Origin: a virus
DNA length: 58,451 bases
Virus record (IMG/VR): IMGVR_UViG_3300047094_002783
Coordinates: 1-58,451 of that record
Strand: one strand, 5' to 3'
The notes beneath the pieces were generated by a model, which worked only from the letters and a program-made list of their open reading frames with translations, did no database searches and was not told the DNA's origin. Below are positions 7,924 through 53,844 of the stretch, piece after piece. The translations under genes were made by a program, and so were the position numbers. Within the stretch, counting starts at the first letter, position 1. Each line of letters begins with the position of its first letter.

Positions 7924-10512
7924 ATGACGATGAGTGGCGGGCAAGGAGAGCGTGTAATTCGCCCCGGCAGCCGCCGAAACGGTGGTTTTCAGCCTGCGGA
8001 AACGCGGCGATTTGCCGAGGAGCAGGGGTTGAGGGGGTACGACGGGGGGCAGGCGATGATCAGGCGACTGCGGGAGGGAGGCGAGAGGGAGGGAGGGCGA
8101 GATCGGGGCGGATTCCGGGGGGAAGATGCGCGAATGGGGCTGGCATCAACGCTGTTGAGCCAATTGGAGCCCGGAATGGAGCCGGAACCGGGGACGTGGA
8201 GTTTTGTGCAGGACTTGGAGGGGATGGCGGGGGTGCCGGCGGGGAGCTTGGACGCGGATATAGCGCTGCGGGCGGCGCAATTCATGGATTCGGGGCCTGG
8301 GGGTCCGAATTTGGGGGCGCGGGAGGCCGTAGCGATCGCTGTTGGTGAGCAGTTGTCAATGCCGAGGGAGAACAGGAGCGAGTTCCGGCGGCGGGGGCGT
8401 GATGACCAGGGGGAAGTGCGCCGGGCGTTTTATGAGCTGGGGCTGGGGAGGGCCCTGGAGCGTGCGGGGGATCTGGTGCCGGCGGGGACGGCGGTAGGAG
8501 AGGGACTGCGGGTCGAGGGGGTGGAGTACGGGCCCGACGAGCCGGCGGTCCAGGCGCTGCGGAGCAAGGTGCGGCAGCTGGACCAGGACGAGCAGCGGCT
8601 GCTACGGCAGACGTTTGGGCACGGGAAGAAGGTGGGGACGAGCGGACGCCGGAATGCGCTGGCCAAGGAGTCGTTCGGTGAGCGGGCGGTTGGCGGCGAT
8701 GTGCCGTTGCTGATGGCGCGCCGATCGGAGCAGAAGCGGTGGGACGGGAGCACGGTGACAGAGGTGCCGACGGTGCAGCAGCCACGGGAGCAGAAGTGGG
8801 TGCAGCAGGCGCGAGAGCAGGCGCAGCGGACCGCGGCCTACGGCGCCAGCCCGGCGGAGCGGGCGCGTGCGGGGCAAATGCTGAAGCAGCTGGAAGCGAT
8901 TGCTGACCAAAGCGCCTACGAGCTGAACGAGAAAGGGAAAGCGCGGCGGGTGCTGGCGGTGGACCCGCGGGGCGTGCGGCAGCTGCTGGTGGATCCGAGT
9001 GTGGTGCTGGATCCGATGGATCTGGGGCTGACGGACGACCACCCGCTGGTTGAGCTGGCTAAGCGGTATTCGCGGTCCGAGCCTGCGACGGGGAAATTCG
9101 AGATGGGGTCCTACGAGGCGGTAGGAGCGCCGAATCCGGAAGAGTGGAACGTCGACGAACTTGGTCGGACGCACGGATTCAGCCGACCGAACGACCCTGG
9201 GGTGCCGAGGGTGGCGACATGGCCAACGGTGGGACAGGCCTTCCAGCGAGCGCTGGAGGAGGCCGAAACACCAGTGCGGACGCTGGTGATGGGGCGGCGG
9301 CCGGTGGAGCCGGACTTCGGGGCAGTGCAGCGATATTGGAACGAGGCCGACGTGAAGCCGATGGTGGCTGACCTGGGCGACGGGCGGCTGGCGATTGTGC
9401 AAGAGCAGGACGGACGGCCGGTGCCGGGCCCGGAGGTGTTTGCCGTGGATCAGTGGGTGCCGGAGCAGGGCGAGGGCGATGAGGTGTTCACCAGGCGGTA
9501 TCGGGTGGGGGAGAACGCGAAGTGGCGGCAGGAGAAGCTGGAGGGAGCGCGGTCACTGGTGCAGGCGCTGGCGGAGTATGCGGGGGTCCCGGGGGGTTGG
9601 CGACTGGTGGGGGACACCGGGCTGACGGATCCGATGATCAACGCGGTGCAGAACACGGCGTTGCAGCGGACGCTGGGGGCTGACGCGGTGTCGAGCCGGA
9701 GTGCGGCGGTGCGCGGGGAGTTCCCTGACTGGGTGGAGCGGGTGGGACGAGCGGAGAGGGGGACGGTGTACGACAACCCACTATTCACGGTGCTGGATAC
9801 GCTCTCGAGACTGGGCGGCCGCCCAGCGGAGGACGCCCCGGTGCGCGCGCCGGCGATTGGGCCGACACCTGCGAGCCAGGCGTATGGCGAGACGTGGCAC
9901 GGAGTGGTGAAACCGCTGCTGGAACATGCGCGAGACGTGCAGGGCAGGCGGCTGGACGCAGCGCCGGGGACGTGGCAGTTCGACGACTTCAAGGGTGGCG
10001 AGGTCTATCCGGGGGTGCCAGTGCCGCCGCCAGTGCCAGTGCCAACGGCTGAAAGCGTGATGGGCGGATATGCACTGAACCAGGGCGCGGCGCCGCCTGG
10101 CGGGCTGGCGCCACGGCAGGCGGCGGAAGTGATGCGGACCCCAAGCCGGTTCGATCGGCAGACGGTGGCAGCGATAGAGGGCTGGCTGGGGGAGAACGTC
10201 ATGTCGCCGACGCGGCTGACGCAGGAGGAGTTGGCGCTTCTGGCCCCTGGGCCGGACTACTCGGCGCCCGCGGCGCGGCCGATCGACGTGGGCGCAGAAC
10301 TAGGGCTGAACGCGGTGACGGGCCCCGGGCGGTACGGGGACGAGGCGCGGCCTGCGATTGTGCCCAACTACGGGGCGCTGGTGCAGCAGGCGCAGGTCCA
10401 GGGGGCGCGCCGGCAGACGGAGCCCGACGGGCTACCGGTGGTGGACTACGAGGCGCGAGTGGCGGCGAAGCTGCTGGCTGAGCAGGCCCTGGCACGAGCG
10501 CGAAGGATGTGA
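7924..10512 (+). CDS. Large unrecognised virion-type protein, 862 aa
   Basis: The first gene of the rightward block. The start is ATG at 7924, or ATG at 7930 two codons later. The N-terminus is Gly/Arg-rich and probably disordered; the middle is mixed alpha/beta with segments such as LRSKVRQLDQDEQRLLRQTF and VLAVDPRGVRQLLVDPSVVL; the C-terminal third has a proline-rich stretch (PVPPPVPVPTAES) and ends in an Ala-rich helix. No enzymatic motif is visible. Length, position before terminase and company of Gly/Ala-rich genes suggest an internal virion or ejection protein, by inference only. Codons strongly favour G at third positions. Confidence 0.7.
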   Translation: MTMSGGQGERVIRPGSRRNGGFQPAETRRFAEEQGLRGYDGGQAMIRRLREGGEREGGRDRGGFRGEDARMGLASTLLSQLEPGMEPEPGTWSFVQDLEGMAGVPAGSLDADIALRAAQFMDSGPGGPNLGAREAVAIAVGEQLSMPRENRSEFRRRGRDDQGEVRRAFYELGLGRALERAGDLVPAGTAVGEGLRVEGVEYGPDEPAVQALRSKVRQLDQDEQRLLRQTFGHGKKVGTSGRRNALAKESFGERAVGGDVPLLMARRSEQKRWDGSTVTEVPTVQQPREQKWVQQAREQAQRTAAYGASPAERARAGQMLKQLEAIADQSAYELNEKGKARRVLAVDPRGVRQLLVDPSVVLDPMDLGLTDDHPLVELAKRYSRSEPATGKFEMGSYEAVGAPNPEEWNVDELGRTHGFSRPNDPGVPRVATWPTVGQAFQRALEEAETPVRTLVMGRRPVEPDFGAVQRYWNEADVKPMVADLGDGRLAIVQEQDGRPVPGPEVFAVDQWVPEQGEGDEVFTRRYRVGENAKWRQEKLEGARSLVQALAEYAGVPGGWRLVGDTGLTDPMINAVQNTALQRTLGADAVSSRSAAVRGEFPDWVERVGRAERGTVYDNPLFTVLDTLSRLGGRPAEDAPVRAPAIGPTPASQAYGETWHGVVKPLLEHARDVQGRRLDAAPGTWQFDDFKGGEVYPGVPVPPPVPVPTAESVMGGYALNQGAAPPGGLAPRQAAEVMRTPSRFDRQTVAAIEGWLGENVMSPTRLTQEELALLAPGPDYSAPAARPIDVGAELGLNAVTGPGRYGDEARPAIVPNYGALVQQAQVQGARRQTEPDGLPVVDYEARVAAKLLAEQALARARRM

Positions 10513-10550: not shown

Positions 10551-10916
10551 ATGGCTGGCGGCCTTTCCCTCTCTCCGTTGACAGGCCCGCCTGATTCGGT
10601 GCGGCGCGCGCTTAGCGCTGCGGTTGTGAATGCGAACAGCCTGAAGGAGTCTCCGGCGTCTAGCCCAACCCGTGCGGGGGTGTCGGTGCGAGGGACGCCG
10701 TCTCCGGCTGGGACGACGCGGTTCGCGGGCGATGAGATCGCTGAGGCGTTCCAGCGGGCGGACCTGGTGGCGGCGGCCGGGCCGGCGCTGAAGGGATTCA
10801 TGGATGCGATGCAGTCCCCCGGATCACCGTTTGCGCTGCCACCGGCAATGGCGCCGGTGCAGCCTTCGCCTGGATCGGCGAGCAGGCCACGGGGCGGGCC
10901 CGGAGGGATCGCATGA
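10551..10916 (+). CDS. Hypothetical Pro/Ala/Ser-rich protein, 121 aa
   Basis: It starts MAGGLSLSPLTGPPDSVRRA. The protein is low-complexity at both ends with one likely helix in the middle (DEIAEAFQRADLVAAAGPAL). The ATG directly follows a perfect inverted repeat. It overlaps the next gene by four bases (ATGA). No family recognised; a virion-associated role is inferred from its operon. Confidence 0.6.
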   Translation: MAGGLSLSPLTGPPDSVRRALSAAVVNANSLKESPASSPTRAGVSVRGTPSPAGTTRFAGDEIAEAFQRADLVAAAGPALKGFMDAMQSPGSPFALPPAMAPVQPSPGSASRPRGGPGGIA

Positions 10917-11533
10917 GCATGAGATTCGCGGGGCTGGGCGGACGGGCGCTGGACTACCTGAAGCGGGTGCTGGTACCTCGCAACGAGGCGGGCGAGATCG
11001 ACAAGCTGCAGATGGGGCTGGAGTACGGGGGCAACGGTCTAGCGGCGCTGTTTTCCGGGGCGGCGTTCGGGGGCGGCAATGCTGGGGATTCGCTGGCGAT
11101 CGGGGCCGAAGATCTGGGGATTGGGTTGCTTGGATCCTTGGGCGGCCGAGTGGCTGGCGACCGAGTGGGCAGGCTGCTGAAGCTGCAGAGTCCGCAGGCG
11201 CTGGACATGGCCAGGCTGGGCGGCTCGATGGTGACCGAAATGGGGGTTGGCTTCGGGTCGCCGCGGCCGCTGATGGAGGGGGTCTTGCAGAAGCAGCAAC
11301 AGCGGGCAGACGCCAAGCAAGCGCCCGCAGCTGCGGCGCCACCGCCGGCACCAGCGCAAGGCGGCTTCGTGCGGCAGCAGTTCGGGCCATCGCCACTGGA
11401 GCTGCCGTCGAATTACGGAGCAGCCAGCCCCGGCCTGGCGACGGGCGACAGCAGCGACGCAATGTTCGCTCGGTTTCTGGCGCAGCAGCCAAAGGAAGTA
11501 CAGGACCTTGTCCTGCAGTCGATGGGGAACTGA
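10913..11533 (+). CDS. Hypothetical Gly/Ala-rich protein, 206 aa
   Basis: The middle contains Gly-rich hydrophobic segments (GGNGLAALFSGAAFGGGNAG, GIGLLGSLGGRVAGDRVG) that look like glycine-zipper helices able to pack in or near membranes. A Gln-rich then Ala/Pro-rich linker follows, and the C-terminus carries a short helix (AMFARFLAQQPKEVQDLVLQ). This layout is common in phage internal/ejection proteins, but no homologue is recognised. Confidence 0.6.
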   Translation: MSMRFAGLGGRALDYLKRVLVPRNEAGEIDKLQMGLEYGGNGLAALFSGAAFGGGNAGDSLAIGAEDLGIGLLGSLGGRVAGDRVGRLLKLQSPQALDMARLGGSMVTEMGVGFGSPRPLMEGVLQKQQQRADAKQAPAAAAPPPAPAQGGFVRQQFGPSPLELPSNYGAASPGLATGDSSDAMFARFLAQQPKEVQDLVLQSMGN

Positions 11534-11536
11534 GCA

Positions 11537-12949
11537 ATGGCGAACGGCTCGCAGGTGATCCAAAACGCGAATCTTCCCTTCGATTGGGATGAGCTGAAGT
11601 GGATTGCTGCGCAGGCGTTCCGCTCGAATCCGCGGGCGTTCCAGGATGCGCAGACCGCGGCGGTGGGGAGTGGCTACGAGGCGTCGCTGTTCGAGGACGT
11701 GACAGCCAACTCGCCCTTGGTGGATTATGTGCGGCAGCACCTGCCGGGGCGGCTCGGGGACACCAGGGCGGGGCAGTCGTTGCCGTGGAACACGCCGGAA
11801 TGGGTGCAGAGGATCCCGCTGGGTGGGTATAGCAAGGAGCGGATGGAGTCGTTTGCGCGTTCGCGGGGATCGAACCCGGAGATGCGGGCGACGACAGTGC
11901 AGCGGGATGTGACGCCGGAATTTGAATCACCGACAGTGGACGTACCGATCGGTGACAGCGGACGGCGAAAGGCCGCGCAGGCGTTCGGGGTGACGATGGC
12001 CGACACGGTTGGAGTGCAGGGGCTGATGAACCTGTGGTGGCTGATGAACGCGGGCGAGGCGGTGACGAGCGTGGCCACGCTGCAGGGACTCCACAACGCG
12101 CAGGCGGGGATCTCGGACGTGCGGGCGCCTTTGCTGCAGAGCCGGTCGATGCGGATGGCGGCCACGGCACCGGCGTGGATTGCGATGAAGTTCGCCAATG
12201 GCAGCCTTGGGCGACTGGATGGCTACGGGGCTGCCTCGCCAGGAGAAGGTGACCGGCGGGAGTCGAGTAGCCCGGTGGCGGAGTTTTTGAGCGAGATGGT
12301 GCTGGGCCGGAGCGGGGAGCTGTTGCCGTACCGGGAGTTCGTGCGGGAGCGGCCCGACGTGAGCAAAGGGGAGTACGAGCAGTACAAGGCGTTTCTGCAC
12401 GGCAACAAGCTCCCGATCAAGTTCACCCCTGACGGGATTCATGGGGCGGAGGTGAACTTCCTGGGTAAGTCGCTGCCGGTGGCGACGGCGATCATCCCGG
12501 CTGTGGCGATGGCGCTGGGGGGTCGGGCGGGGGCAAGGCGTGCGGCACTGCGACTGAAGGAGAGCGGCGTGGATCCGGTGAGCGGGGAGATCGGTGTCAA
12601 CCTGCTGCAACGGCGGGAAAAAGCGAAGGCGAACGTGGCGGAGGTGAAGCGGAAGATGTGGGAGGACGATGGGGACGGCGAAGGAGGGGACGAGTATCTG
12701 CAGGAGGCCGTGAGCAATGAGCGGGCCTACAACCGAGCCGTGGAGAACGAGGTGCTCAAGGACGTGCTGATCCACGGAGGCGGGTCACTGACGACGGCGG
12801 CCCTGATCGGCTCGACCCTGGAAGGCGTTCGGAGGGGGCTGAAGGGCAAGGCGCCGGTCGAGGAAGAAGAAGAGCCTGGGACCGCGCCGGCTGAGTTGCC
12901 CGCGTCTCCCCGGGTGGGCCAGAATGGGGTAACTGGAGGACGGCGATGA
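11537..12949 (+). CDS. Hypothetical virion-type protein, 470 aa
   Basis: Residues 1-190 are mixed, with FDWDELKWIAAQAF near the start. Hydrophobic segments occur around residues 150-190 (VGVQGLMNLWWLMNAG) and 310-330 (SLPVATAIIPAVAMALGG). A charged coiled-coil-like stretch (LLQRREKAKANVAEVKRKMW) and a Glu run (VEEEEEPG) precede a Pro-rich tail. It could be an ejected, membrane-interacting protein; no enzyme motif is visible. Starts three bases after the previous stop and overlaps the next gene by four bases. Confidence 0.65.
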   Translation: MANGSQVIQNANLPFDWDELKWIAAQAFRSNPRAFQDAQTAAVGSGYEASLFEDVTANSPLVDYVRQHLPGRLGDTRAGQSLPWNTPEWVQRIPLGGYSKERMESFARSRGSNPEMRATTVQRDVTPEFESPTVDVPIGDSGRRKAAQAFGVTMADTVGVQGLMNLWWLMNAGEAVTSVATLQGLHNAQAGISDVRAPLLQSRSMRMAATAPAWIAMKFANGSLGRLDGYGAASPGEGDRRESSSPVAEFLSEMVLGRSGELLPYREFVRERPDVSKGEYEQYKAFLHGNKLPIKFTPDGIHGAEVNFLGKSLPVATAIIPAVAMALGGRAGARRAALRLKESGVDPVSGEIGVNLLQRREKAKANVAEVKRKMWEDDGDGEGGDEYLQEAVSNERAYNRAVENEVLKDVLIHGGGSLTTAALIGSTLEGVRRGLKGKAPVEEEEEPGTAPAELPASPRVGQNGVTGGRR

Positions 12950-13281
12950 GACCGAACGTGATGGGCGGGAGCAGTTTCGCTGGTGGCGGCGAAGGGGGCA
13001 GTGCCGTGGACGCCTTTGCTTCGGCCAGGACGGCGGGCGTCCGGGGGATGGGGGAGATGATCGGGCGAGGGTTGAGCAATCAGGCCAGTACGATCGCACA
13101 GAAACAGGTCAATGACGAGCAGATGAGAGCCTTCCGCAGCGTCAACAGGCGAAAGCCGAAGGGCTACCCGGCGGGCTCCATGGGCTCCGCGCAGTCGCAG
13201 GGTACGGGCAGGGATAATTCGCAGGTGCTCGAGGCGATCGGTGGTGTCCTTGGCCGGATTGTTTCCGGCGGCAGGCGATGA
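12946..13281 (+). CDS. Hypothetical small protein, 111 aa
   Basis: A Gly/Ser-rich N-terminus (MGGSSFAGGGEGGSAVDAFA) is followed by a helical part (LSNQASTIAQKQVNDEQMRA), a basic patch (RKPKG) and a C-terminal IGGVLGRIVSGGRR. Four-base overlaps on both sides show tight coupling. No family recognised. Confidence 0.55.
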   Translation: MRPNVMGGSSFAGGGEGGSAVDAFASARTAGVRGMGEMIGRGLSNQASTIAQKQVNDEQMRAFRSVNRRKPKGYPAGSMGSAQSQGTGRDNSQVLEAIGGVLGRIVSGGRR

Positions 13282-13862
13282 GACGCGACTACGAATTTTC
13301 AGGCAGTTACACGCCCGAGCAGGCCTACGCGCCGCCGGGCGCTGTGCAGTTCGCGAAGAGGGACTGGGGCGATGGCCAAGGCGGCTCGCTGGCAAGTAGT
13401 GCGCCAGGGCCTGTGCAGGCACTGCCGCTGGCGACAGCAGGACAGTCGGCGGCCTCGGGCCCGGGGCGGGGCATGGACAGCGTGCGAGCAGCTGCAGAGA
13501 GTGATCCGGTGAGGCCAAATCAGGAGGGATTCAGGGCGAGCAGCGATGCCGGCCGTGCCTTTGCGAGCGGGAGCGAAGCGCTGTCCCAGGCGCAGGGGAG
13601 CGCGGCTGCTATGGCGCTGGATGGCGCAGGGCAAGCACTGATGCAGAGAAGCCAGGGGCTTGCAGATGCCAGGCTGTGGGAAGAACAGCAGCAGCAGGCG
13701 ATGAAGGACTACAGCGCGCAGCAGAAAGCGGCAAAGAGGAAGAGCACCGGCGGCGGCCTCCTTGGAGCGATCGGATCGGTGGTCGGATCAGTCTTTGGTG
13801 GACCCGCTGGAGGAGCGATCGGCGGGGCGGCCGGCAAGGCTCTGGGCGGACTGTTCGGCTAG
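13278..13862 (+). CDS. Hypothetical protein with C-terminal glycine zipper, 194 aa
   Basis: The N-terminal half is Pro/Ala/Gly/Ser-rich. A central Gln/Ala-rich helix (EEQQQQAMKDYSAQQKAAKR) leads to a C-terminal hydrophobic glycine-zipper segment (GAIGSVVGSVFGGPAGGAIG), a pattern seen in channel-forming or membrane-penetrating virion proteins. A possible ejection-channel role is inferred from this tail only. Confidence 0.6.
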   Translation: MRRDYEFSGSYTPEQAYAPPGAVQFAKRDWGDGQGGSLASSAPGPVQALPLATAGQSAASGPGRGMDSVRAAAESDPVRPNQEGFRASSDAGRAFASGSEALSQAQGSAAAMALDGAGQALMQRSQGLADARLWEEQQQQAMKDYSAQQKAAKRKSTGGGLLGAIGSVVGSVFGGPAGGAIGGAAGKALGGLFG

Positions 13863-13876
13863 GGCCTCAGAGCGCT

Positions 13877-13882
13877 TAGAAT
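13877..13882 (+). promoter_or_regulatory. TAGAAT motif
   Basis: TAGAAT lies 27 bases upstream of the next ATG, in one of the few real gaps of this gene block. Confidence 0.3.
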
Positions 13883-13909
13883 CTGGGGAGTTTCGTCGCC
13901 GTCTCGGAG

Positions 13910-14647
13910 ATGCCACCGTACGTCCCAGGCGGTCCGCTGGCGGTCAGACCGCGCTACGCGAGGGTTACTCCTGAGGCGATTGATGCCGAGGTTGCGAGGC
14001 CTCCGTCTTCCGGCGGCGCCGGTGGCGGTATTTCGGGCGGTCCTCGCTGGGCCGGCGACCTGATGTCTTCGCTGAGCAGCCTTGCCGGCGGCATGGGCCG
14101 CAAACGGCTGATCGCTGGCGGGGCTGGTATCGGCGGGTTGCTGGCCGCTGCCGGCGAGATGGGGGACAAGAGTGAAACCCCTCAGCAGAACCTGGTGGAC
14201 GCCACCGGTGCGGGCGTGGGTAGCTTGGCCGCGTTGGCGCCACTGGCGTTCGGAATGAGCGGTCCCATGGGATGGCTCGCGGCTGCCGGGCTGGGGTTGG
14301 CAGGCAGTCAGGTGGGCAAGGCGGGGCTGCGGGGAGCGACGGACCTGGTGGGGCTGACTCGATCTGACACTCCCGAGCAGAAGGCCATTCAAAACGCCCT
14401 CAACGCCAACGAGGCTGGGATCACGATGGATTCTCGCCGCCGGCAGGCGAACCTGCCGATCGCTGAGCAGGAGATGGCGCTGGCCCGGCAGAACGACATC
14501 TTGCGCATGAAGGCAGACCTCGAGGCGCGCCAGCAGGCCGCCTACGCCCAGGCGGTACTGGCGATGGCCCAGGGCGGGTCCAACCAGGCCCTGGGAGCGA
14601 TGTCAGGGGCGGCTCAGCAGATTCTTTCAATGCCCAATCCGTACTGA
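13910..14647 (+). CDS. Hypothetical Gly/Ala-rich protein, 245 aa
   Basis: Hydrophobic Gly/Ala stretches (GRKRLIAGGAGIGGLLAAAG; LAALAPLAFGMSGPMGWLAA) lie between residues 55 and 150. A C-terminal charged helix (IAEQEMALARQNDILRMKAD) continues into a Gln/Ala-rich tail. Two membrane-like segments followed by a long helix resemble phage internal proteins. It opens a new stretch after a ~48-base gap. Confidence 0.6.
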   Translation: MPPYVPGGPLAVRPRYARVTPEAIDAEVARPPSSGGAGGGISGGPRWAGDLMSSLSSLAGGMGRKRLIAGGAGIGGLLAAAGEMGDKSETPQQNLVDATGAGVGSLAALAPLAFGMSGPMGWLAAAGLGLAGSQVGKAGLRGATDLVGLTRSDTPEQKAIQNALNANEAGITMDSRRRQANLPIAEQEMALARQNDILRMKADLEARQQAAYAQAVLAMAQGGSNQALGAMSGAAQQILSMPNPY

Positions 14648-14653
14648 TCGGCT

Positions 14654-15166
14654 ATGAGCGCTCTTGCTGGTGCCTACACTCAGACGTTTCGCCCGGTCGC
14701 CCCGCTCCAAGGGACGGTGTTCGATAACGGCTCGGACATGCTGCTTGGGCAGATGCCGATGCAGACGGCTGCCTTGATAGCGCCACTGGCCCAGACTGGG
14801 CTCAACAACCAGGCGCAACTGGCCAACACGACCCTGGTCAATCGCCAGCGGACCCTGGAGCAGAAGACCGAGATTGCGGCGCTGGAGAAGCAGCGCAAGC
14901 AAACCCGCAAGGCGACGCTGGCGGATCGGCTTCTGCAGTCCGCCTCTGGCCTGCGGGGCTCGGGGGCGAAGGAATGGGCGATGGGGCAGTTGTTTGCCCC
15001 CCAAGGTGATGGACTCACCCGGGCGGGCAACCGCTACGGGACAGGGCTGGCCACCTTTGAGGGGGCGCAGGCCGGGAACGCGCCGCTGCTGCAGACTTAC
15101 CTTGGCGCAGCAACGAACGCTGATAGAGCCCGATCGAGCCTCCCCGCACCAACCATGAGGAATTGA
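14654..15166 (+). CDS. Hypothetical Gln/Ala-rich helical protein, 170 aa
   Basis: The centre is a long predicted helix or coiled coil (NRQRTLEQKTEIAALEKQRK). The flanks are Gly/Ala-rich with few charged residues. No membrane segment or enzyme motif is seen. Together with the next three genes it forms a set of small, closely spaced structural-type proteins before the terminase. Confidence 0.6.
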   Translation: MSALAGAYTQTFRPVAPLQGTVFDNGSDMLLGQMPMQTAALIAPLAQTGLNNQAQLANTTLVNRQRTLEQKTEIAALEKQRKQTRKATLADRLLQSASGLRGSGAKEWAMGQLFAPQGDGLTRAGNRYGTGLATFEGAQAGNAPLLQTYLGAATNADRARSSLPAPTMRN

Positions 15167-15169
15167 GCC

Positions 15170-15715
15170 ATGAATCCACTCGATCTGTTCAAACCGAACC
15201 CCTACACCTACAAGTCGCCGGAAGTGCCGAAGGTGCCTGCCAGCAAGCCGCAAGAGGCTGTGGTCGCGCCGGGATTGTCGTCGCCAACGCAGATGGGGGA
15301 GGGCCTGAGGGAACAGGCGTGGCAGGACGCCTACCGAACCGATTGGTCGCAGAGGCGAGGGATTGATAACGGCGTCTACGGCAGAATGCGCATGGCGCCC
15401 CTGCTGCGAGAGGAAGCCAGGACTGGCAGCCAGATCCGGGTGGACGAGAACAAGGCGATAAGAGATAACTACACCGACAATCAGCTCAGGCTGGGAGGTC
15501 AGACCTTCAATCAGGGATTAACGGTCGCCGACCGCTATGTTGGCTTGGGCAAAGACACCAGCGACAGGGTGTCCACGGCCGTCACTGGCGAGCAGACCAA
15601 TGATGCCGCCCGGCTGCAGCTGATGCGGGACGTACTGATGAAGCCCAAGGGTTTCACCGAGACCCTCTTCGAGCTGACTGGTGCCATTGCACCGATTGTT
15701 TCTCTTTTCGTCTGA
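15170..15715 (+). CDS. Hypothetical structural-type protein, 181 aa
   Basis: The N-terminus is Pro/Lys-rich (NPLDLFKPNPYTYKSPEVPK). The middle is polar (NKAIRDNYTDNQLRLGGQTF), and the C-terminal ~25 residues are hydrophobic (FTETLFELTGAIAPIVSLFV) and could insert in or contact a membrane. Starts three bases after the previous stop. No family recognised. Confidence 0.6.
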   Translation: MNPLDLFKPNPYTYKSPEVPKVPASKPQEAVVAPGLSSPTQMGEGLREQAWQDAYRTDWSQRRGIDNGVYGRMRMAPLLREEARTGSQIRVDENKAIRDNYTDNQLRLGGQTFNQGLTVADRYVGLGKDTSDRVSTAVTGEQTNDAARLQLMRDVLMKPKGFTETLFELTGAIAPIVSLFV

Positions 15716-15718
15716 GCC

Positions 15719-16285
15719 ATGGCATCTCTTGCATCGGGTACTGGCTCTGGCGTGCAACCCTACGGGGGGAGCGTCGCGGCATCGATCTATGACAGGTCTC
15801 AGTCGGGACTGGTGAATCTGGCGAACAAGTATGCCGGCAATGAAGCACTCTCGGGGGTCGCGGTTGGGAAGCTTGCAGATAGCTATGGGACGGGCCTCAA
15901 CACAGCGGCGCAGATCGAGTACGATAACGCCTTCTTGGGGTCGCTGACGCGGTACCAGCAGAGTGTTGAAAACCTGCGCAAGGGGAATACCCTCGAACTC
16001 CTGGCGGCCGAGACCGGCTCGAAAAAAGAATTGATGAGCGTTGAAGGCGAACTGACCAAGGACCAGATCATGACCCAAGGGGACCAGCAGCGGCGAGGCC
16101 TTGTCACCGGTGGCGAGCAGGACCGGCTTGGGGTGGCTGCCCGAGGCGAGCAGGACCGGCTGGGCTACCGGGTGCAGGGCGAGGAGAGCCGGCTGTCGCA
16201 GAACAACGCGACGGACAACACGAACCGGCTGCGGGATAGTGACAGGGACCGGGTCCGTCAGCAAGGCCAGAGGTACTACGGATGA
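15719..16285 (+). CDS. Hypothetical structural-type protein with short repeats, 188 aa
   Basis: The C-terminal third carries tandem copies of a ~10-residue unit: RRGLVTGGEQD, RLGVAARGEQD, RLGYRVQGEES, so a G-E-[Q/E]-D-R-L-G repeat. The centre is helical (SLTRYQQSVENLRKGNTLEL). Such short repeats suggest an extended or solenoid segment. Overlaps the next gene by four bases. Confidence 0.6.
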   Translation: MASLASGTGSGVQPYGGSVAASIYDRSQSGLVNLANKYAGNEALSGVAVGKLADSYGTGLNTAAQIEYDNAFLGSLTRYQQSVENLRKGNTLELLAAETGSKKELMSVEGELTKDQIMTQGDQQRRGLVTGGEQDRLGVAARGEQDRLGYRVQGEESRLSQNNATDNTNRLRDSDRDRVRQQGQRYYG

Positions 16286-16794
16286 TGCCCGCGCAGGCGG
16301 TCAGCCAGGTGGCGCAATTTCTGCGCATGCTGGCTGACACCGATCGAGAGCTGTTCATTGACACGGTGGAGACCGCCACTTCGCCGATCGAGATTTGGAC
16401 TCTGGCGACAGTGCTGGGGTACACCGGCTCAATGGGCGACCTAATCGCCTGGGCCAATGAGCTGTATCCACGGACAGACCGGCGCAAGGTGTTGCTGGCA
16501 GAAGCGGACAAGCTGAAGACCGACATTGCGAACGCCCGAGCCCTGATAGCCAGCGAGGCCCTGGACGCCAAGGAGGGGTACTCGCGGATTGCGTTCCTCT
16601 CGCGGGAGCTACGGGGGCATCTCACCGAAGCGGACAAGATGGCGCGAACCCTCGATAGGCGGGGCTTGATGATGGCCGGGGCAGATCGGGTGATGCGAGA
16701 GCTGCGGACAATCTTTGCGGGAAGCGTCGACATGGAGTCAGCGTTGGCTCAAGCGTTCAAGGCAGTGTGGGCAGTCCTGATAGACGAGCGCTAG
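16282..16794 (+). CDS. Hypothetical helical protein, 170 aa
   Basis: A largely helical, charged protein (VLLAEADKLKTDIANARALI; SRELRGHLTEADKMARTLDR). It ends ~55 bases before the terminase. A small terminase subunit would be expected near here and such proteins are often small and helical, but no DNA-binding motif is visible, so that is only a possibility. Confidence 0.55.
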   Translation: MMPAQAVSQVAQFLRMLADTDRELFIDTVETATSPIEIWTLATVLGYTGSMGDLIAWANELYPRTDRRKVLLAEADKLKTDIANARALIASEALDAKEGYSRIAFLSRELRGHLTEADKMARTLDRRGLMMAGADRVMRELRTIFAGSVDMESALAQAFKAVWAVLIDER

Positions 16795-16848: not shown

Positions 16849-18447
16849 ATGCCGGCCACGTCTCGCGTTCTCGCTTACCGCCGGGCTGCCCGTGAAGCTG
16901 CGGTGTCGGCCATGGCTTCTGCCGCGGCGGCCAACCCTGTCGTGCCCTTCGCTCAGGGCGCGCCCGAGGTAAAGGAGGTTGCCGACGAGACGCCAGCGGA
17001 GATCCTGACAGCCCGCGAGAGCTTCGAGGCATTCTGCACCCGCATGGGCAAGCCGCCGCCGCGGCACATGCGCGAGTGGTACGAGGTCTTTCTCACAGGC
17101 CAGAGCAACGAGCACCTGAGCCATATCGCTGGGCCCGATACGGCGCTGCTGAGCCCCAGGGGAAGCGCCAAGTCCACCTTCGTGGCGATGCTGCTGGCCT
17201 GGCTGATCGGCAAGCACGCCCTGGAGCACAAGCTGCTGCGCGTTCTCTACGTGTCCTACAACGTGAAGGTGGCAAAGGCCAAGAGCGCGGCGGTCAAGTC
17301 GATCATCAATTCGGACGACTACCGGCTGATCTTTCCGAATGTGCGCCTCAGCCGGCAGAAGAAGGGGGATGAGCTATGGGAGATCGACTTCACTTTCGCG
17401 GGGATCGACGTGCGAGGGGAGGACGCCTTCACCCTGGCTTGCGCCGGCCTGCGAGGCGCAATCACCTCGAAGCGGGCCAGCCTAATCGTGGTGGACGATC
17501 TGATCAAGAGCCAGTCGGACATCGCGAATCCGGACGTGCGCCGGGAGATGGAGCACAACTGGAGCGCGGTGATTGAGCCCACCCGGTTCGAGGGCGGCCG
17601 CTCGCTGGTACTGGGTACCCGGTTCCACTTTGACGACATGTTCGCGACCGCCTTCGTACCCAAGAACGGCTGGAAGGTGATCAGGCAGGCGGCGATCGAA
17701 TACAGCGACGACGGCGCGCCACGCAGCTACTGGCCGGGGATGTGGAGTCTCAAGTATCTGCTGGGCAAGCAGACCAAGGACCACGTCGCCTTCGCGTATC
17801 AGTACCTCAACCAACCGGTGTCAACCACCGAGTTGGGGATCAACCCGAGCCTGTTCCGCATGGTCGAGCTCCCCGAGGTCTACGACGAGATCGGAGTCGG
17901 GATCGACCTGTCGGCCGGGCTTACCGAACGGCACGACTGGACCGTGTTCACGCTGGCCGGCCGCCTGGGGGATGCCTGTTACATAATCGACTACCGGCGG
18001 CTGCGCACGATCGGCAACCTCGAGAAGATCGATGCGCTCTGCGAGCTGCTGGTCGAGTGGAACCTGCTGCGGGAGGGGGAGCCGCTGAGCGACGGGAAGC
18101 CTCAGTTCTTTGCGACGTCCAGCGAGGTGACGATCTGGCCGGAAGCAGTGGCTTACCAGAAGTCGTTCAGCGGGGATTTCCAGCGAATCTGCCACGAGGA
18201 GCGGCAGCTGTTCAACCTGCGGCCCAGCCCGATCAAGGGGCTGAGGGGGGACAAAATGGCGCGCCTGCGGGGAATAATGGGGCTGCTGCAGACCGGTAAG
18301 GTCCGGTTCAACCGGTACCGGGACTTCAAGGTGATGATCGATGAGGTCGTCAATTTCGGCCACTGCACGAATGACGACTGCGCGGACAGTCTTAACATTG
18401 TGGTTCAGTCACTGATGAGCCGCTCCGCGGTCGAGGTCGAATACTGA
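16849..18447 (+). CDS. terL: Terminase large subunit (DNA-packaging ATPase/nuclease)
   Basis: The 532-residue protein has a Walker A-like LLSPRGSAKSTF near residue 105, a coupling RVLYVSYNVKVAKAKS segment, a Walker B LIVVDDLIK near residue 215, and an SLVLGTRFHFDD motif that follows Walker B in TerL proteins. The C-terminal half should be the RNase H-like nuclease, starting at IGVGIDLSAG with its acidic residue. It cuts and pumps concatemeric DNA into the prohead through the portal. The start ATG is preceded by TTGCGT-16 bp-TAGCCT, a possible promoter giving a very short leader. Confidence 0.93.
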   Translation: MPATSRVLAYRRAAREAAVSAMASAAAANPVVPFAQGAPEVKEVADETPAEILTARESFEAFCTRMGKPPPRHMREWYEVFLTGQSNEHLSHIAGPDTALLSPRGSAKSTFVAMLLAWLIGKHALEHKLLRVLYVSYNVKVAKAKSAAVKSIINSDDYRLIFPNVRLSRQKKGDELWEIDFTFAGIDVRGEDAFTLACAGLRGAITSKRASLIVVDDLIKSQSDIANPDVRREMEHNWSAVIEPTRFEGGRSLVLGTRFHFDDMFATAFVPKNGWKVIRQAAIEYSDDGAPRSYWPGMWSLKYLLGKQTKDHVAFAYQYLNQPVSTTELGINPSLFRMVELPEVYDEIGVGIDLSAGLTERHDWTVFTLAGRLGDACYIIDYRRLRTIGNLEKIDALCELLVEWNLLREGEPLSDGKPQFFATSSEVTIWPEAVAYQKSFSGDFQRICHEERQLFNLRPSPIKGLRGDKMARLRGIMGLLQTGKVRFNRYRDFKVMIDEVVNFGHCTNDDCADSLNIVVQSLMSRSAVEVEY

Positions 18448-18448
18448 A

Positions 18449-20680
18449 ATGCCGGCAGCCAAATCCCAACGTTTTCGTGAGTTACTAGAGGCTCTCAGGT
18501 CCCGCACGGCATCTGGTGAATCGGACACTTTGGTGGTGGGCGGCCACTTGGTCCAGCAGCAACTGTTCATGCTGCGGCAAGGTATCGAGTTTTACCCCAA
18601 GCAGGACACCTTCGGGCATCGCAAGACGTTTCTGCAGAATCTGATCACCGAGAACGAGGTCGATCAGCGTCTGGAGGGCGTGGTTGACGACTTCTTGCTG
18701 GACGGCAAGGGGATCTGGTTCTTCCGCCCGGTCAGGGATAGTTACCGGATCCTGTGGTTCCCTAAGAGCGACTACCGGGCGTATTACGACGCGATGGCTG
18801 AGATCGACGAGCTGATCCTGGTCTACAGCTACGAGGTAAAGCCAGGGGCGGGGATGTCGGCCAATCCCGGGCCCAACGGCCAGATGCAGCAGTGGGTGAA
18901 GCTTGTGGTACGCCGGGACTCGATTCGTGAAACGATCCTGATGTCGCGGCCGAACCTTGACGCGGCCGGGCCGTTCACAGGCGAGATGTTCGGCGGAACC
19001 AGGACGGTGCGCAATTCCCTGGGCTTCATCCCGGCGGTAGAAGCTTTCAATAAAATGAGGTCCACCGGGATGGACGCCACCGGTGACTTCGATTGGCTGG
19101 AGTCACAGATAACCGGCCACGACGAGCTGGTAGGCAACATCAGGGAAAACATCAGGTTTTTTGGCAACCCGACCCTGGTGTCTTCAAGACCCAAGACGGA
19201 CATCACGACCGAGGCTTCGACTGGATCGCCGGCGCAGCGGCCGACAATTGCGTCTCAGGCTGGCTTCTCTGGCGAAGGGGCGCCTTCAACGCGGATGTCG
19301 CCGCCAGCGGGCTCGGGGGGCGGGCGTGAGCGTGGCTTCAAGATTGCTCGAATTATTTCTAACGTGGACCCCACTGACCGGGTGGCGTATATCACGCCAG
19401 ACGCGGTCAGTGGCGATCAAAATCTCTACGCTCGTCAGTACCGCGAAGAACTGCGGGGGGTCCTGGGTGGCGTCGACGAGCTGGGGATAAGTAGCGGGGC
19501 AACTACCTACGAGATCAAGAGCCTGTTTGGCCGGCCTGCCGCCACGGCCGGGCGGAAGTGCCGCGGACTGCTCACCTACGGGCTGTGCAAGCTGCTGGCG
19601 CTGATCATCTACAACGAGGAGCGGGTGTTTCGCGAATCGTTCGCCGCGGCGATCAAAATGAAGCGCCCTGAGGCGCCCCTGCAGGAAGAGGCTACCGATC
19701 CCAAGAAGTTTCGCAAGGAGGCCGAGGCGTTCGATGCGGCGATGGCCGAGTACGACGCCAAGCTCGAAGAGGCAATTCGCAAGGCGGTGCAAGAGCAGGC
19801 CATGCCGCCTGGGGTAACGGGACTGATTCCCGACGGGGACCGCCAGGTGGATTGGCGCTGGCGCGGACCAGTGTTCGAGGACTCGGCGGATGACATCCTG
19901 CAGAAGTCGATTGTGGTGCGCAACCTGCAAGAACTGGGAGTTGCCTCGGTTGAGGCCTTGCGTCATCTGTTCCCCGACAAAACAGATGAAGAACGAAGTG
20001 CAATGTTGAGCGGCTTCCCGTTTAGGATGGCGCAGCAGACCCAGGCCAGTATTGCGACTTTTCTGTCGCTGGTGTCCCAGATGCAGCAAACGCCGCATCC
20101 TCAGGCCCCTAATCTGCCGCTCCTGGCAGACCCTAGACTGGACCTGACGCCCTACATCTACCGGGCCTTCGATTTCCTCAAGCGAGAGCTGACCTATGCA
20201 GGGACCTACCGCGACTCCTCAGGCTCCGGCGATCCCGCAGGGCTCGATGCCTTCCAGCGCTCCCGCCTCGCCAGAGGCCTACCAGCAAGCACCGGCGGCG
20301 AGCCACCCACCTTCGTACCAGACGGCTCCGGCGCCACAGGCCCTGGTAGTGCCCTATTCCCAACCGGCGCCCCAGGCGGTGAACCAATGGGACGTGGCCC
20401 TTCAAGGGCTTTACAACTCTTTGAGCGCGACGCCCAGTTACCAGGCCCCGGGTCAGTTCTGGCCGCAGACCCAGCCAGCACCCGCCCCGGCTCCAGCTCC
20501 GGCTGGGGTGATGGCCCCGCCCCAGGTGTTCCAGCAACCGGTTTACAGCCCCGCGCCTTACTCCCAGCCGCACCCGGCCCAGGCCCAGCTCCAGCAGTGG
20601 GCGGCGACCCCTTCGCAGTTGGCTACCGCCGCACCAACGGGCGACCAGTACCTGGGCGGCCTCAGCGGCGCAAGTCTTGA
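18449..20680 (+). CDS. Probable portal protein
   Basis: The gene begins one base after the terminase stop and encodes 743 residues. The N-terminal ~580 residues look like a mixed alpha/beta portal protein (LEGVVDDFLLDGKGIWFFRP; long C-terminal helices such as KFRKEAEAFDAAMAEYDAKL). The call rests mainly on size and placement right after TerL and before a scaffold-like gene. The last ~160 codons overlap the next gene in a different frame and give a Pro/Gly/Ser-rich tail, which may be disordered or an accident of the overlap. Confidence 0.75.
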   Translation: MPAAKSQRFRELLEALRSRTASGESDTLVVGGHLVQQQLFMLRQGIEFYPKQDTFGHRKTFLQNLITENEVDQRLEGVVDDFLLDGKGIWFFRPVRDSYRILWFPKSDYRAYYDAMAEIDELILVYSYEVKPGAGMSANPGPNGQMQQWVKLVVRRDSIRETILMSRPNLDAAGPFTGEMFGGTRTVRNSLGFIPAVEAFNKMRSTGMDATGDFDWLESQITGHDELVGNIRENIRFFGNPTLVSSRPKTDITTEASTGSPAQRPTIASQAGFSGEGAPSTRMSPPAGSGGGRERGFKIARIISNVDPTDRVAYITPDAVSGDQNLYARQYREELRGVLGGVDELGISSGATTYEIKSLFGRPAATAGRKCRGLLTYGLCKLLALIIYNEERVFRESFAAAIKMKRPEAPLQEEATDPKKFRKEAEAFDAAMAEYDAKLEEAIRKAVQEQAMPPGVTGLIPDGDRQVDWRWRGPVFEDSADDILQKSIVVRNLQELGVASVEALRHLFPDKTDEERSAMLSGFPFRMAQQTQASIATFLSLVSQMQQTPHPQAPNLPLLADPRLDLTPYIYRAFDFLKRELTYAGTYRDSSGSGDPAGLDAFQRSRLARGLPASTGGEPPTFVPDGSGATGPGSALFPTGAPGGEPMGRGPSRALQLFERDAQLPGPGSVLAADPASTRPGSSSGWGDGPAPGVPATGLQPRALLPAAPGPGPAPAVGGDPFAVGYRRTNGRPVPGRPQRRKS

Positions 20681-21362
20681 GGTTCTGCAGCATTTTGGCC
20701 CCGAGACCCCGGCGCTGCTCAATCATTATTCCTGCGTGATTGAGGACGCTCTGTTGCGTCAGGCCCAGCAGACTCTCGAGGTGACTGCCCAGGCCCAGCA
20801 GCTTCACCAAAACCTGCAGAACGCTCACACCTTGATCACCGCAGCCGCCGAGGACAACGCGGCTTATCACACTATCCTCTCAAGCCCTTCCCTGCTGGCC
20901 CAGTACACTACTGAGTTTTTCGGCCCCGGTGGCCCCGGTGAGCTGCCTGCAGCTCCCGTCCAGGAAGGTCCTCGTGACCGCCTGGCCGCCGAAGTGGCCT
21001 ACGGCGAATCCAGCGGACGCATGCTGCCCCCCAGGAGCGGTGCGCGAGCCCCCGAGCTGATGGAAAGCTACGACCAGTACCCCGTTGGGGGCACGCCCCA
21101 GGGCTATCCCCAGTTCCAGGCTCAGGGTCAACCCCAGTTCCAGGCTCAGCCCCCCGAGCCCCAAGGCCAGCCCTTGTATCAGCGCCCGCAACTGGAGATG
21201 CGGCCCCCGGGGCAGGGTGGCAGCGCGAACGGTAATGACATCCTGGCGACCGTTTTCGCTTTGATGGACAGCGACCCCAGGGCCGCTGCTGCGTTCTACA
21301 GCCAGAACATGGCCGCGCTACCCCAGGCCCTGATGTCCCGCCAGCTGATGGGTGAGAACTGA
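20196..21362 (+). CDS. Scaffold-like Pro/Gln/Ala-rich protein overlapping the portal gene
   Basis: The 388-residue product is Pro/Gln/Ala-rich in residues 1-160 (QQAPAASHPPSYQTAPAPQA), helical in 160-230 (LLRQAQQTLEVTAQAQQLHQ), and again Gln/Pro-rich (YPQFQAQGQPQFQAQPPEPQ) before a C-terminal helix with LATVFALMDSDPRAAAAFYS. Helix plus disordered Q/P regions fit phage scaffolding proteins that template capsid assembly. It overlaps the portal frame by 485 bases, far more than its neighbours. An alternative is a later internal start near codon 104. Confidence 0.65.
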   Translation: MQGPTATPQAPAIPQGSMPSSAPASPEAYQQAPAASHPPSYQTAPAPQALVVPYSQPAPQAVNQWDVALQGLYNSLSATPSYQAPGQFWPQTQPAPAPAPAPAGVMAPPQVFQQPVYSPAPYSQPHPAQAQLQQWAATPSQLATAAPTGDQYLGGLSGASLEVLQHFGPETPALLNHYSCVIEDALLRQAQQTLEVTAQAQQLHQNLQNAHTLITAAAEDNAAYHTILSSPSLLAQYTTEFFGPGGPGELPAAPVQEGPRDRLAAEVAYGESSGRMLPPRSGARAPELMESYDQYPVGGTPQGYPQFQAQGQPQFQAQPPEPQGQPLYQRPQLEMRPPGQGGSANGNDILATVFALMDSDPRAAAAFYSQNMAALPQALMSRQLMGEN

Positions 21363-41990: not shown

Positions 41991-42989
41991 ATGAATCCAT
42001 TCGGAATGTTTCAAGGCTTCGGCCAAATGAACCGCAGCGACTTCAAGAGGCCTTACCGAGACAGGCCCGCGCCGCCGAGTCTTGGTCAGATGAACCGCAG
42101 CGACTTCAGGGCGCCAGTTAGATCTCCTCAGCCTCCAGCACGCCGCCCCGTCGGCGGCGCCGGCAATATCAACCCCTACGGCAACAGCCCAGGCCGCAGC
42201 AACGTCGACCCTTACGGGGTAGGTGGCACACGCAGGGTCTCGCCCCGCCCGGTGGCGCCTCAGCCTCCAGCACGCCGCCCCGTCGGCGGCAACGCTGCAG
42301 CAGATTACCGCGTGCCCGCCGGACAGGCTCCGATGCCAATGGCGCCTCAGCGCGCCCCCGCAAACAGTACCGCTAGCCGAAGCAACGCCGTAATGGCCCC
42401 CCTGGGCGCTTCCCGGAACGGGGCTCTGGTTCAAGCGGCCGGCAACGCCGGGATGCGCTTAGTGGATCCGGCCAGTCTCAGCACGCCCGCCAGCAACGGC
42501 GTGCTGCCGGGTGCCCCTGGGAATACCGGCCGCCGGATGCTTTCAGAACTTGGTGGCGGGCGACCCGTCCCAGTTTCAGCGGCCGACTTTGGCGCTGGCG
42601 GCGGGATTGCCCAGGGGGCCGCCTTCCCTGAGAGCGGCGATCGCTTCAGCGGCTTGCGCCCCGACCTGGCTGCCTGGGCGCGGAGCAATCAAGGTGCTGC
42701 CAGGGGTGCCGACGGGCTGAACATTGTCGATCGCTTTATGGCCAAGCAAGGCGCTGCGCCCCTTGTTACACCGGCGGGCTTGCCGCAAACCATGGCAATT
42801 GATGCTGCCCCTGGGCCTCTATTGACTAATGGGGCCGATACCGGCCTCACCGCCGAGCAGCAAACCCAGGCCGGCGCGGCAGCGGACTTCAACCTCAATG
42901 CCGACCTGATAGATCAGGTCCAACTGATGCGGGAGGCGTACCGCAATAACTCGCGCCCCAACCCTGGCGCTGCCAACCTTCCCTATTGA
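41991..42989 (+). CDS. Hypothetical Pro/Arg/Gly-rich structural protein with internal repeats, 332 aa
   Basis: Residues 1-110 contain two copies of GQMNRSDF[K/R] and two of PQPPARRPVGG, with N-P-Y-G motifs between; this part is surely disordered. The remaining ~220 residues are Ala/Gly-rich with a helix near the C-terminus (LIDQVQLMREAYRNN). No family recognised. It lies between connector and tail genes and may be a linker protein. The repeats are also perfect at DNA level. Confidence 0.6.
   Translation: MNPFGMFQGFGQMNRSDFKRPYRDRPAPPSLGQMNRSDFRAPVRSPQPPARRPVGGAGNINPYGNSPGRSNVDPYGVGGTRRVSPRPVAPQPPARRPVGGNAAADYRVPAGQAPMPMAPQRAPANSTASRSNAVMAPLGASRNGALVQAAGNAGMRLVDPASLSTPASNGVLPGAPGNTGRRMLSELGGGRPVPVSAADFGAGGGIAQGAAFPESGDRFSGLRPDLAAWARSNQGAARGADGLNIVDRFMAKQGAAPLVTPAGLPQTMAIDAAPGPLLTNGADTGLTAEQQTQAGAAADFNLNADLIDQVQLMREAYRNNSRPNPGAANLPY
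42126..42158 (+). repeat. 33-base perfect direct repeat, first copy
   Basis: An exact 33-base unit encoding PQPPARRPVGG, repeated 132 bases downstream in the same gene and in frame. Confidence 0.85.
42258..42290 (+). repeat. 33-base perfect direct repeat, second copy
   Basis: Second exact copy of the 33-base unit at 42126-42158. Recombination between the copies would remove 132 bases in frame. Confidence 0.85.
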
Positions 42990-45360: not shown

Positions 45361-45366
45361 GGGTTT

Positions 45367-45726
45367 ATGGCCGCACCGAATCTCAGGGAGCCAAGCCTCG
45401 TCACCGGCGAGACGATTGGCTACGCGGTGACAACGACCCTGGCGGATGCGCTGACCAACGCGGCGGCCAGTGGCAAGGTGTTCAAGATCAATGCGGTCTA
45501 CTGCGCCAATGTCGACGGCAGCCTGATCGCGAAGATTGACCTGGTGTGGCGGCGTTCAGGGGTGGACACCCACCTGGCCAAATTGATCTCGGTGCCCGCC
45601 GGCGCGACGCAGGTCCTGGTGGCCCGTGAGGCTTACATCTACCTGAAAGAAGGCGACAGCCTCAGGGCCAAGGCGGACGTGGCTGGCGATCTGGAGCTAA
45701 CGATCAGTTACGAGGACATCAGCTAA
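45367..45726 (+). CDS. Conserved phage tail-accessory beta protein, 119 aa
   Basis: The product (TLADALTNAAASGKVFKINA; VYCANVDGSLIAKIDLVW; LISVPAGATQVLVAREAYIY; LKEGDSLRAKADVAGDLELT) fits a small beta-sandwich family common next to fibre genes in cyanophages and other marine-type phages, ending SYEDIS. It is probably a tail adaptor. Its stop overlaps the next ATG by one base (TAATG). Confidence 0.75.
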   Translation: MAAPNLREPSLVTGETIGYAVTTTLADALTNAAASGKVFKINAVYCANVDGSLIAKIDLVWRRSGVDTHLAKLISVPAGATQVLVAREAYIYLKEGDSLRAKADVAGDLELTISYEDIS

Positions 45727-46496: not shown

Positions 46497-46511
46497 GACC
46501 CGCGACAGGCA

Positions 46512-47331: not shown

Positions 47332-47349
47332 GGTGTCGCAAGCCAGTCC

Positions 47350-47619: not shown

Positions 47620-47642
47620 CGTGAGACGACCGTGATCACGCC

Positions 47643-52503: not shown

Positions 52504-53844
52504 GTGGCCAGGACACTGCAGGACTACCAGGCCGCGGCGCAGAACCCCTTCGGTCGTGCCCTGCTGGACACCATCGCTTCAGCGGAAGGCGCCGACTACA
52601 ACGTCCAGTTCGGCGGCGGTCGCTTTGATACCAGCCGGGGGTGGAAGCACCCCCGCCAGGTGCTGGGCCGGGGCAAAGGTGGCGTAAACAGCCAGTGGGC
52701 TTCTGATGCCTCGGGCCGCTACCAGTTCCTTTCGACTACTTGGGACGAGGTCGCCGGGCAGTTAGGGCTCAAGGACTTCAGTCCGGCCAGCCAAGATGCT
52801 GCGGCCATGCGGCTGATCGAGCGCCGCGGAGTGAACCTTGACGATGTGATGGCCGGCAAGGTAGACGCCGGCACGCTGGCCAAGCTGGCGCCGGAGTGGG
52901 CTTCGCTGCCGACGCTGGCAGGTAAAAGCGCCTATGGTCAGCCAGTCAAAAAGGCTGCCGACCTGCTGGCAAAGTTCACCGCCGCCGCGAAGGGGGCGCC
53001 CCCAAGTTCGGGGGCCAGCTTTCAAAGGCCCGCAGCAGGCGGGGGAGTTCCCCCCGGGGAGCTGTCCCTGGATGTGCCGAATCCTTACGGAGGGCTAAAC
53101 CAATCAACCGCAATGCCAATGCCCGGACGGGGGCAAACACCAGAGACGTTGGCACTTGCCACGATCGGCAGCGCGATCGCCGCCGGCGGAGTGGCCGGGG
53201 CTGGCAATGCCGGGCTGCAATACCTGGCGGCCAGGGGCGCCCAAGGCCGGCAGCGAATGGCTGGGACCCTGGCTCAAATGGTTAGCGGTGAGCCCCCGGC
53301 CAGTGTCCCGCCGCAGGCGATTGCTGCCCCCATGGAGGTGGCTGCCCAGGGCACGCCAAGACAGCCCGGCGGCGGCGGCTCGCCCCCGGCTGCCAGTGGT
53401 GCTGGGCCGGTGCCATTCAAGCGCTCTGTCTCGACCTCGTTCGACCAAGGGCAGCCGGGGATTGATCTCTACTTCGAGGACAAGCAGTTCCGGTCCCTGC
53501 TGCCCGGACGGATCAAGGACATCGGCTACCAGGGCTCGGGCCGGGGGGCGACAGGCAAGGGCTACGGCAATTACGTGGTCAAGGAATCGATCGATCCGGC
53601 CACCGGCCAGAAAGTCGACGTGCTCTACGGCCACCTTGATTCGATCAATGTGACCAAGGGCCAAGAGGTGCCCGAGGGAGCGGTCATCGGCAGGCAGGGC
53701 GGCACCGGCCGGGTCCTCAGTCAGGACGGCACAATTGCTTCGGTCGATTTCCTGGCGCCAGCGCCGGCCGGTAGCGGCAGCATGACGCCCTACCAGAACT
53801 TCGACCCGCTTCGGCGGCGGCTGGCCAAGCGTTGGTCCCAGTGA
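52504..53844 (+). CDS. Chimeric lysin: GH104-type muramidase with degenerate M23-like domain, 446 aa
   Basis: The GTG start follows a strong GGAGG ribosome-binding site at a good distance. Residues 1-165 match the lambda R/GH104 type: ALLDTIASAEGADYNVQFGG, ASDASGRYQFLSTTWDEVAG, GLKDFSPASQDAAAMRLIER, so the catalytic Glu lies in SAEG. A Pro/Ala/Gly-rich linker with Gly-Ala helices follows. Residues ~300-430 keep the M23 skeleton (GQPGIDLYF, DVLYGHLDSINVTKGQEVPE, GRQGGTGRV), but the first His is Gln and the final H-x-H is not seen, so it may only bind the wall. The protein could act in host lysis or as a virion-associated lysin. Confidence 0.8.
   Translation: MARTLQDYQAAAQNPFGRALLDTIASAEGADYNVQFGGGRFDTSRGWKHPRQVLGRGKGGVNSQWASDASGRYQFLSTTWDEVAGQLGLKDFSPASQDAAAMRLIERRGVNLDDVMAGKVDAGTLAKLAPEWASLPTLAGKSAYGQPVKKAADLLAKFTAAAKGAPPSSGASFQRPAAGGGVPPGELSLDVPNPYGGLNQSTAMPMPGRGQTPETLALATIGSAIAAGGVAGAGNAGLQYLAARGAQGRQRMAGTLAQMVSGEPPASVPPQAIAAPMEVAAQGTPRQPGGGGSPPAASGAGPVPFKRSVSTSFDQGQPGIDLYFEDKQFRSLLPGRIKDIGYQGSGRGATGKGYGNYVVKESIDPATGQKVDVLYGHLDSINVTKGQEVPEGAVIGRQGGTGRVLSQDGTIASVDFLAPAPAGSGSMTPYQNFDPLRRRLAKRWSQ

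Follow-up and report, generated by a model that had tools for sequence, protein, structure and literature searches.

Which proteins does an S-EIV1-like cyanobacterial virus send into its host, and can they be recognised when none of them belongs to a named family? The question is raised by the IMG/VR viral record IMGVR_UViG_3300047094_002783 (58,451 bases, analysed whole and referred to here as the window), in which ten tandem plus-strand open reading frames (ORFs), g1 to g10, lie between a large gene coding for 862 amino acids (aa), g0, and the gene of the large terminase (TerL). A sequence-only reading of this DNA had proposed that the ten products, together with that of g0, could form an ejection machine of a new type. 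On the basis of composition, gene order and conservation, it seems probable that g0 to g9 encode an unusually many-part ejection set, whereas g10 is probably the small terminase subunit and not a part of that machine.

The window portal-like protein is 43% identical to that of S-EIV1, its sole match among 50,697 phage records, and the major capsid protein (MCP) shares 58% identity with a frame of S-EIV1; in tblastn searches of the phage collection S-EIV1 was the only match for the portal, g3, g10 and MCP queries, and the g6 protein of one relative (L077) found none. The S-EIV1 MCP is an unannotated plus-strand frame of 383 aa (L085:20860-22011, record positions 60859-62010), overlain in the record by a minus-strand coding sequence (CDS; 60784-61545) and, at 61540-62010, by a fragment from its C-terminal end. 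A listing in PMC7156551 places S-EIV1 among the short-tailed phages, and the tail type is taken from that listing. That g0 to g10 are real genes follows from the low ratios of nonsynonymous to synonymous differences (pN/pS) between the window and the relative L004, which range from 0.09 to 0.36 for g0 and all ten followers. Against the more distant L008, in which no counterpart of g4 was found, most block genes gave 0.21-0.67, and g0 gave 1.23 over 105 aligned residues. The genes are tightly packed, with a 4-nt overlap at four of the nine junctions among g1 to g10, and a promoter and terminator scan gave no signal above chance. Together with the large gene they form one conserved module: in a set of 85 loci, made up of the window and 84 fetched loci (two contigs enter it twice, as L003/L006 and L004/L007), 32, the window included, have every anchor in the order g2, g3, g6, g9, g10, terL, portal; the remaining 53 lack at least one anchor, often through a contig end, with none out of order. 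Like podoviral ejection genes, those of the block are co-directional, clustered late genes.

The most distinctive property of the module is the exclusion of cysteine (Cys). In the window, the 2,918 aa of g0 to g10 contain no Cys, compared with 128 for the other genes and their 13,642 aa, and the Cys-free run was matched in 23 of 20,000 gene-order shuffles (44 genes, from ORFs that we chose, one with a doubtful start being dropped). In the relatives, the g2, g3, g6, g7, g8 and g9 slots hold no Cys in 193 distinct proteins and 45,534 residues (26 relatives for g2, 31 for g3, and 28, 27 and 55 distinct proteins for g7, g8 and g9, respectively), and the g0 slot is Cys-free in 18 of 18 proteins, several of them shortened by contig ends. 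Cys is present in other proteins of the same relatives, namely TerL (518 in 35,523 residues), the portal (156 in 51,764) and M15 (265 in 15,996). In a second locus set, centred on the capsid gene, it is also present in the MCP (80 in 23,234), the scaffold (64 in 20,591, with Cys in 62 of 63 proteins) and the families 40333 (75 in 14,317), 41007 (23 in 8,408), 41494 (57 in 5,959), 42999 (109 in 6,792) and 43504 (202 in 13,174). S-EIV1 itself, with 239 Cys in the 22,592 aa of 128 annotated genes (the origin-spanning gene left out), has its longest Cys-free run at 44706-53071, comprising 13 genes, the first on the opposite strand, and 2,698 aa; this run stops right before the g10 homologue and was reached in 4 of 20,000 shuffles.

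The same mark is found in most known ejection proteins. In seven short-tailed phages (T7, P-SSP7, Sf6, P22, phiKMV, N4 and Syn5), the ejection proteins (synteny being the basis of assignment for some) total 4 Cys in 16,373 residues and 17 of 21 are Cys-free; the other virion and packaging proteins have 136 in 17,593 residues and 3 of 35 are Cys-free. All four exceptions among the ejection proteins are gp14-like and have a single Cys, at position 2 in three of them. In T7 gp14, P-SSP7 033, Syn5 gp43 and epsilon15 gp14 the lone Cys at residue 2 is followed by a small-residue or hydrophobic stretch. Among phages added later, the three ejection proteins of SP6 and gp22-26 of phiEco32 (five of five) are Cys-free, and gp21, the neighbour of the phiEco32 set, has 6 Cys; the lambda tape measure H is also Cys-free. 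Passages of PMC9509320 report that the SU10 virion contains gp20-24 and that the genome release intermediate no longer does; their pairing with phiEco32 gp22-26 is ours, based on the transglycosylase and gene order. In part of PMC3915230, the absence of Cys from N4-type virion RNA polymerase is remarked upon and attributed to passage through the tail, and a limited literature search found these statements on N4-type polymerases only, with none on ejection proteins in general. Cys exclusion is a compositional mark measured here, and not a published definition of ejection proteins; by this measure g0 to g9 of the window exclude Cys throughout.

Several observations weigh against an ejection role. 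The mark is not universal, as none of epsilon15 gp14-17 is Cys-free (one or two each, 5 Cys in 2,574 aa). Nor is it confined to the block, since the 41991 family outside it is also Cys-free (13 proteins, 4,656 residues), and the window copies of the MCP, 40333 and 41007 individually lack Cys. Within the block, Cys occurs in 6 of 52 g4/g5-slot proteins, a count that leaves out PAPS reductases (recognised by motif and by inspection, with Pfam applied to one; those of L051 and L077 are among them), two ORFs in the wrong frame (L008, L025) and any ORF below 60 aa. Furthermore, no convincing homology was found to 34 known ejection and tape-measure proteins, those of T7, P22, N4, SP6 and phiEco32 included; the lone hhalign match, between g6 and phiEco32 gp24 (67.6%), consists of a glycine zipper of 34 columns, which g5 fits equally well. 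In the g1 slot Cys was found in 5 of 22 ORFs, always ahead of a conserved stretch at which translation probably begins. Among the few Cys-bearing module members are four g5-slot proteins (L022:4605-5099, L025:4383-4877, L060:2109-2573 and L068:2656-3126) that end in CDERxKxDI after the glycine zipper. We take this ending to resemble the start of S74-type chaperone domains, and L022, L025 and L060 gave no Pfam match. Three small sets outside the block, 47643 (6 proteins), 52504 (3 distinct near-full proteins) and 53903 (4 proteins), are Cys-free as well, and these products and that of 41991 may be further ejected parts.

The individual proteins are less uniform than had been described. The sequence-only reading presented them as ten consecutive unrecognised genes sharing Gly/Ala zippers, Gln-rich helices and short repeats. 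No named PHROG or Pfam family was found for g1 to g10, nor any PHROG match for g0, so that the first part stands with the caveat that g5 matches phrog_594, of unknown function (E 2.6e-7), the only convincing PHROG match. Only g5 and g6 proved to have strong zippers. More GxxxG spacings than in composition-preserving shuffles are seen in g5 alone (12 versus 5.7, p 0.004), which has 8 Gly at successive every-fourth positions (equalled in none of 500 shuffles), and uncharged Gly/Ala stretches above 20 aa are limited to g5, with 31 aa, and g6, with 36 aa. Across relatives, stretches of at least 25 aa are found in 24 of 26 g6-slot proteins, 6 of 57 in the mixed g4/g5 slot and 2 of 55 for g9, and in none of the g1, g2, g3, g7, g8 and g10 slots. 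Gln enrichment holds in a mild form (6.1% in g0 to g9 versus 4.1% in the rest), and the short repeats are confined to g9, whose 11-aa units vary in copy number among relatives: L004 has a 33-bp unit in 3.7 copies, and the window g9 is shorter by two units, 22 aa, with no array detected in it by Tandem Repeats Finder.

Few structural proteins of phages are as poorly conserved as the ejection proteins. According to part of PMC8954989, gp15-like proteins are assigned mostly from size and position. PHROG searches were also run member by member for the g6, g10, g5-slot and g9 alignments, and PDB sequence profiles were searched for g3, g10 and g6. Members of the g6 family match tail-lysin PHROGs (25 of 32) and tape-measure PHROGs (22 of 32), and the tape-measure chain 9ki1 (E 7.4e-6); a tape-measure identity for g6 was rejected, the matches sitting in the glycine-zipper part. 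The g3 model is mostly helical (pLDDT 68), with a hydrophobic segment at about residues 312-329; it found no PDB entry at Z of at least 8 and one unnamed BFVD protein (E 2.6e-6).

Four observations set g10 apart as a probable small terminase subunit. Its gene adjoins terL, and the small protein it encodes lies immediately 5' of TerL, as a small terminase does, with a gap of 54 bp in the window and one to three small ORFs in between in some relatives; Cys occurs in 25 of the 53 proteins of its family (32 in 8,937 residues); it is present in 70 loci; and its model is helical with a long hairpin (pLDDT 88). In the fold search the PDB matches were generic helical hairpins (Z up to 9.2), and the best BFVD match was DUF3486 (E 0.58), results that speak neither for nor against the small terminase assignment. 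A relationship to G-protein beta was considered and discarded, the matches (E about 0.4-1) being taken as coiled-coil noise. The earlier proposal of an ejection machine that includes the 862-aa gene is supported as to the conserved module and its Cys exclusion, and is narrowed by the likely terminase role of g10 and by zippers that do not extend to all ten products.

If g0 to g9 do encode an ejection set, their products would be packed inside the head, leave through the portal and tail channel during infection, and build a DNA conduit of about ten mostly small polypeptides through the cyanobacterial envelope, in a role that may parallel those of T7 gp14-16 and P22 gp7/20/16. The glycine-zipper proteins g5 and g6, and perhaps g2 and g3, would insert in membranes; g5 and g6, with their long uncharged Gly/Ala segments, would be the candidates for a gp14-like small membrane member. 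The helical or repeat proteins g7 to g9 and g0 may line or extend the channel, and the lack of Cys could be explained by the need for unfolded, disulfide-free passage through a narrow channel. We infer head packaging, ejection and membrane insertion for the set, as we do each individual role.

Comparison with known systems places this arrangement closest to the late module of S-EIV1 (KJ410740, 45021-54048), which likewise has a large gene (693 aa; up to 905 aa in the relatives), a string of small unnamed genes, terminase and portal, with g3 and g10 homologues in profile searches and the Cys-free run; its 269-aa protein resembles g6 by eye (21% identity in alignment). It differs in the number of small CDS, which is 14 and not ten; all are annotated as hypothetical, and most show no similarity to block genes in profile searches. 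SU10 and phiEco32 also have more than three clustered ejection proteins, the phiEco32 set being entirely Cys-free and its gp24 being Gln/Asn-rich with a C-terminal glycine zipper, as is g5; in contrast, their sets number five and not about ten, include a transglycosylase, lie after the tail genes and not ahead of the terminase, and have no convincing homology to the block. T7 gp14-gp15-gp16 and P22 gp7-gp20-gp16 are clustered, Cys-free except for one residue in T7 gp14, include a small zipper- or membrane-type member and overlap in size (470 aa for g3, 471 aa for P22 gp20), but they comprise three proteins, again without convincing homology. The notion that such phages usually have three internal proteins is no hard rule: passages of PMC9509320 and PMC5694885 already describe the release of five in SU10 and many in giant phages. 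Among the latter, SPN3US and phiKZ carry in their heads many proteins expected to enter the cell (part of PMC5694885), but are jumbo myoviruses that have inner bodies, cleave proteins in the prohead and package an RNA polymerase.

Other explanations of the module must be weighed against ejection. The module could be mixed, with ejection limited to its zipper-bearing and large products (g0, g3, g5, g6 and g9) and the rest accessory, as might be expected from the lack of detected relatives of g1, g4 and g8 beyond close kin and from the variable gene number of the g4/g5 slot; since every member lacks Cys and either overlaps or directly adjoins the next gene, and the g7 and g8 slots are maintained in 28 and 27 distinct proteins, we regard this as unlikely. 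It is rather improbable that the products are instead virion parts retained in the particle (as components of the neck, tail or inner head) and are incidentally Cys-poor, helical and rich in Ala, Gly and Gln. Such a role would suit a block that sits among late genes in a window where PHROGs name no tail-tube or neck gene elsewhere, and some fixed virion proteins are Cys-free (the 41991 family, lambda V, phiEco32 gp15 and the 3 of 35 reference proteins); yet the portal, MCP, scaffold, 41494, 42999 and 43504 of the same phages carry Cys, six block families have none in all their residues, and glycine zippers fit membrane entry. That the products are assembly-only factors (scaffold, core or chaperone-like), found in proheads and absent from mature virions, is very doubtful: the T7 scaffold gp9 is likewise Cys-free and the block adjoins the terminase and portal genes, but a separate scaffold-like gene, of a family that usually contains Cys, follows the portal, and ten distinct assembly factors would be unusual.

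Table 1. Positions of the module genes, neighbouring genes and further features (window coordinates unless a relative is named)
Feature	Position	Strand	Length (aa)	Remarks
g0	7924..10512	+	862	large module member
g1	10551..10916 (alternative start 10542)	+	121	pN/pS 0.23 vs L004; Cys-free
g2	10913..11533	+	206	Gly/Ala segment, moderately hydrophobic; 33 loci
g3	11537..12949	+	470	conserved core protein; 38 loci including S-EIV1
g4	12946..13281	+	111	Cys-free; variable slot between g3 and g6
g5	13278..13862	+	194	Gln-rich stretch, then C-terminal glycine zipper; phrog_594 match
g6	13910..14647	+	245	36-aa uncharged Gly/Ala segment, then Gln-rich helix; 49 loci
g7	14654..15166	+	170	Gln 9.4%; slot in 28 distinct proteins
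g8	15170..15715	+	181	hydrophobic segment at C-terminus; slot in 27 distinct proteins
g9	15719..16285	+	188	11-aa repeat region, conserved basic C-terminus; 67 loci
g10	16282..16794	+	170	probable small terminase subunit; 70 loci
Large terminase	16849..18447	+		context anchor outside the ejection set; phrog_38, E 1.4e-64
Portal-like virion protein	18449..20680	+		context anchor; phrog_20475, E 5.5e-171
Scaffold-like gene after portal	20682-21362			84 loci
Lysozyme + M23 peptidase	52504..53844	+		lacks Cys; tentatively a partner that cuts the wall
Cys-free families outside the block	47643-48227, 53903-54391, 41991-42989			possible further ejected or internal proteins
PAPS reductase insertions	L038:4481-5188, L035:136-861, L051:4052-4807, L077:4470-5174, others			Pfam PAPS_reduct on L038; rest by eye

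In several relatives the module is interrupted by other genes. Between the g5 and g6 slots the inserted gene codes for a PAPS reductase, and a gene of 620-875 aa lies ahead of g9 in L035 (2864-5488), with similar ORFs in L010, L011, L012, L033 and L047; the L035 product contains three DUF4214 repeats and a Hint domain, and is possibly self-cleaving. Elsewhere in the window, the minus strand at 54733-58200 holds a 1155-aa frame, by eye a putative ribonucleotide reductase with an intein-like insert.

The novelty lies in a proposed set of about ten small proteins, spread through the lineage and showing no convincing homology to known ejection proteins, and in marking it off by Cys exclusion. If true, it would be the largest ejection set known to us outside the giant phages, and a machine split into about ten small parts would raise the question of the number and order of the proteins that make up the conduit. 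A broader proposition, to which we give slightly less than an even chance, is that S-EIV1-like cyanophages possess an ejection apparatus of about ten proteins unrelated in sequence to the T7, P22 and N4 types, and that Cys exclusion is general for portal-threaded proteins, so that sequence suffices to recognise ejection sets when homology is missing; such a homology-free composition test would open up the ejection machines of uncultured phages, those of this cyanophage lineage included.

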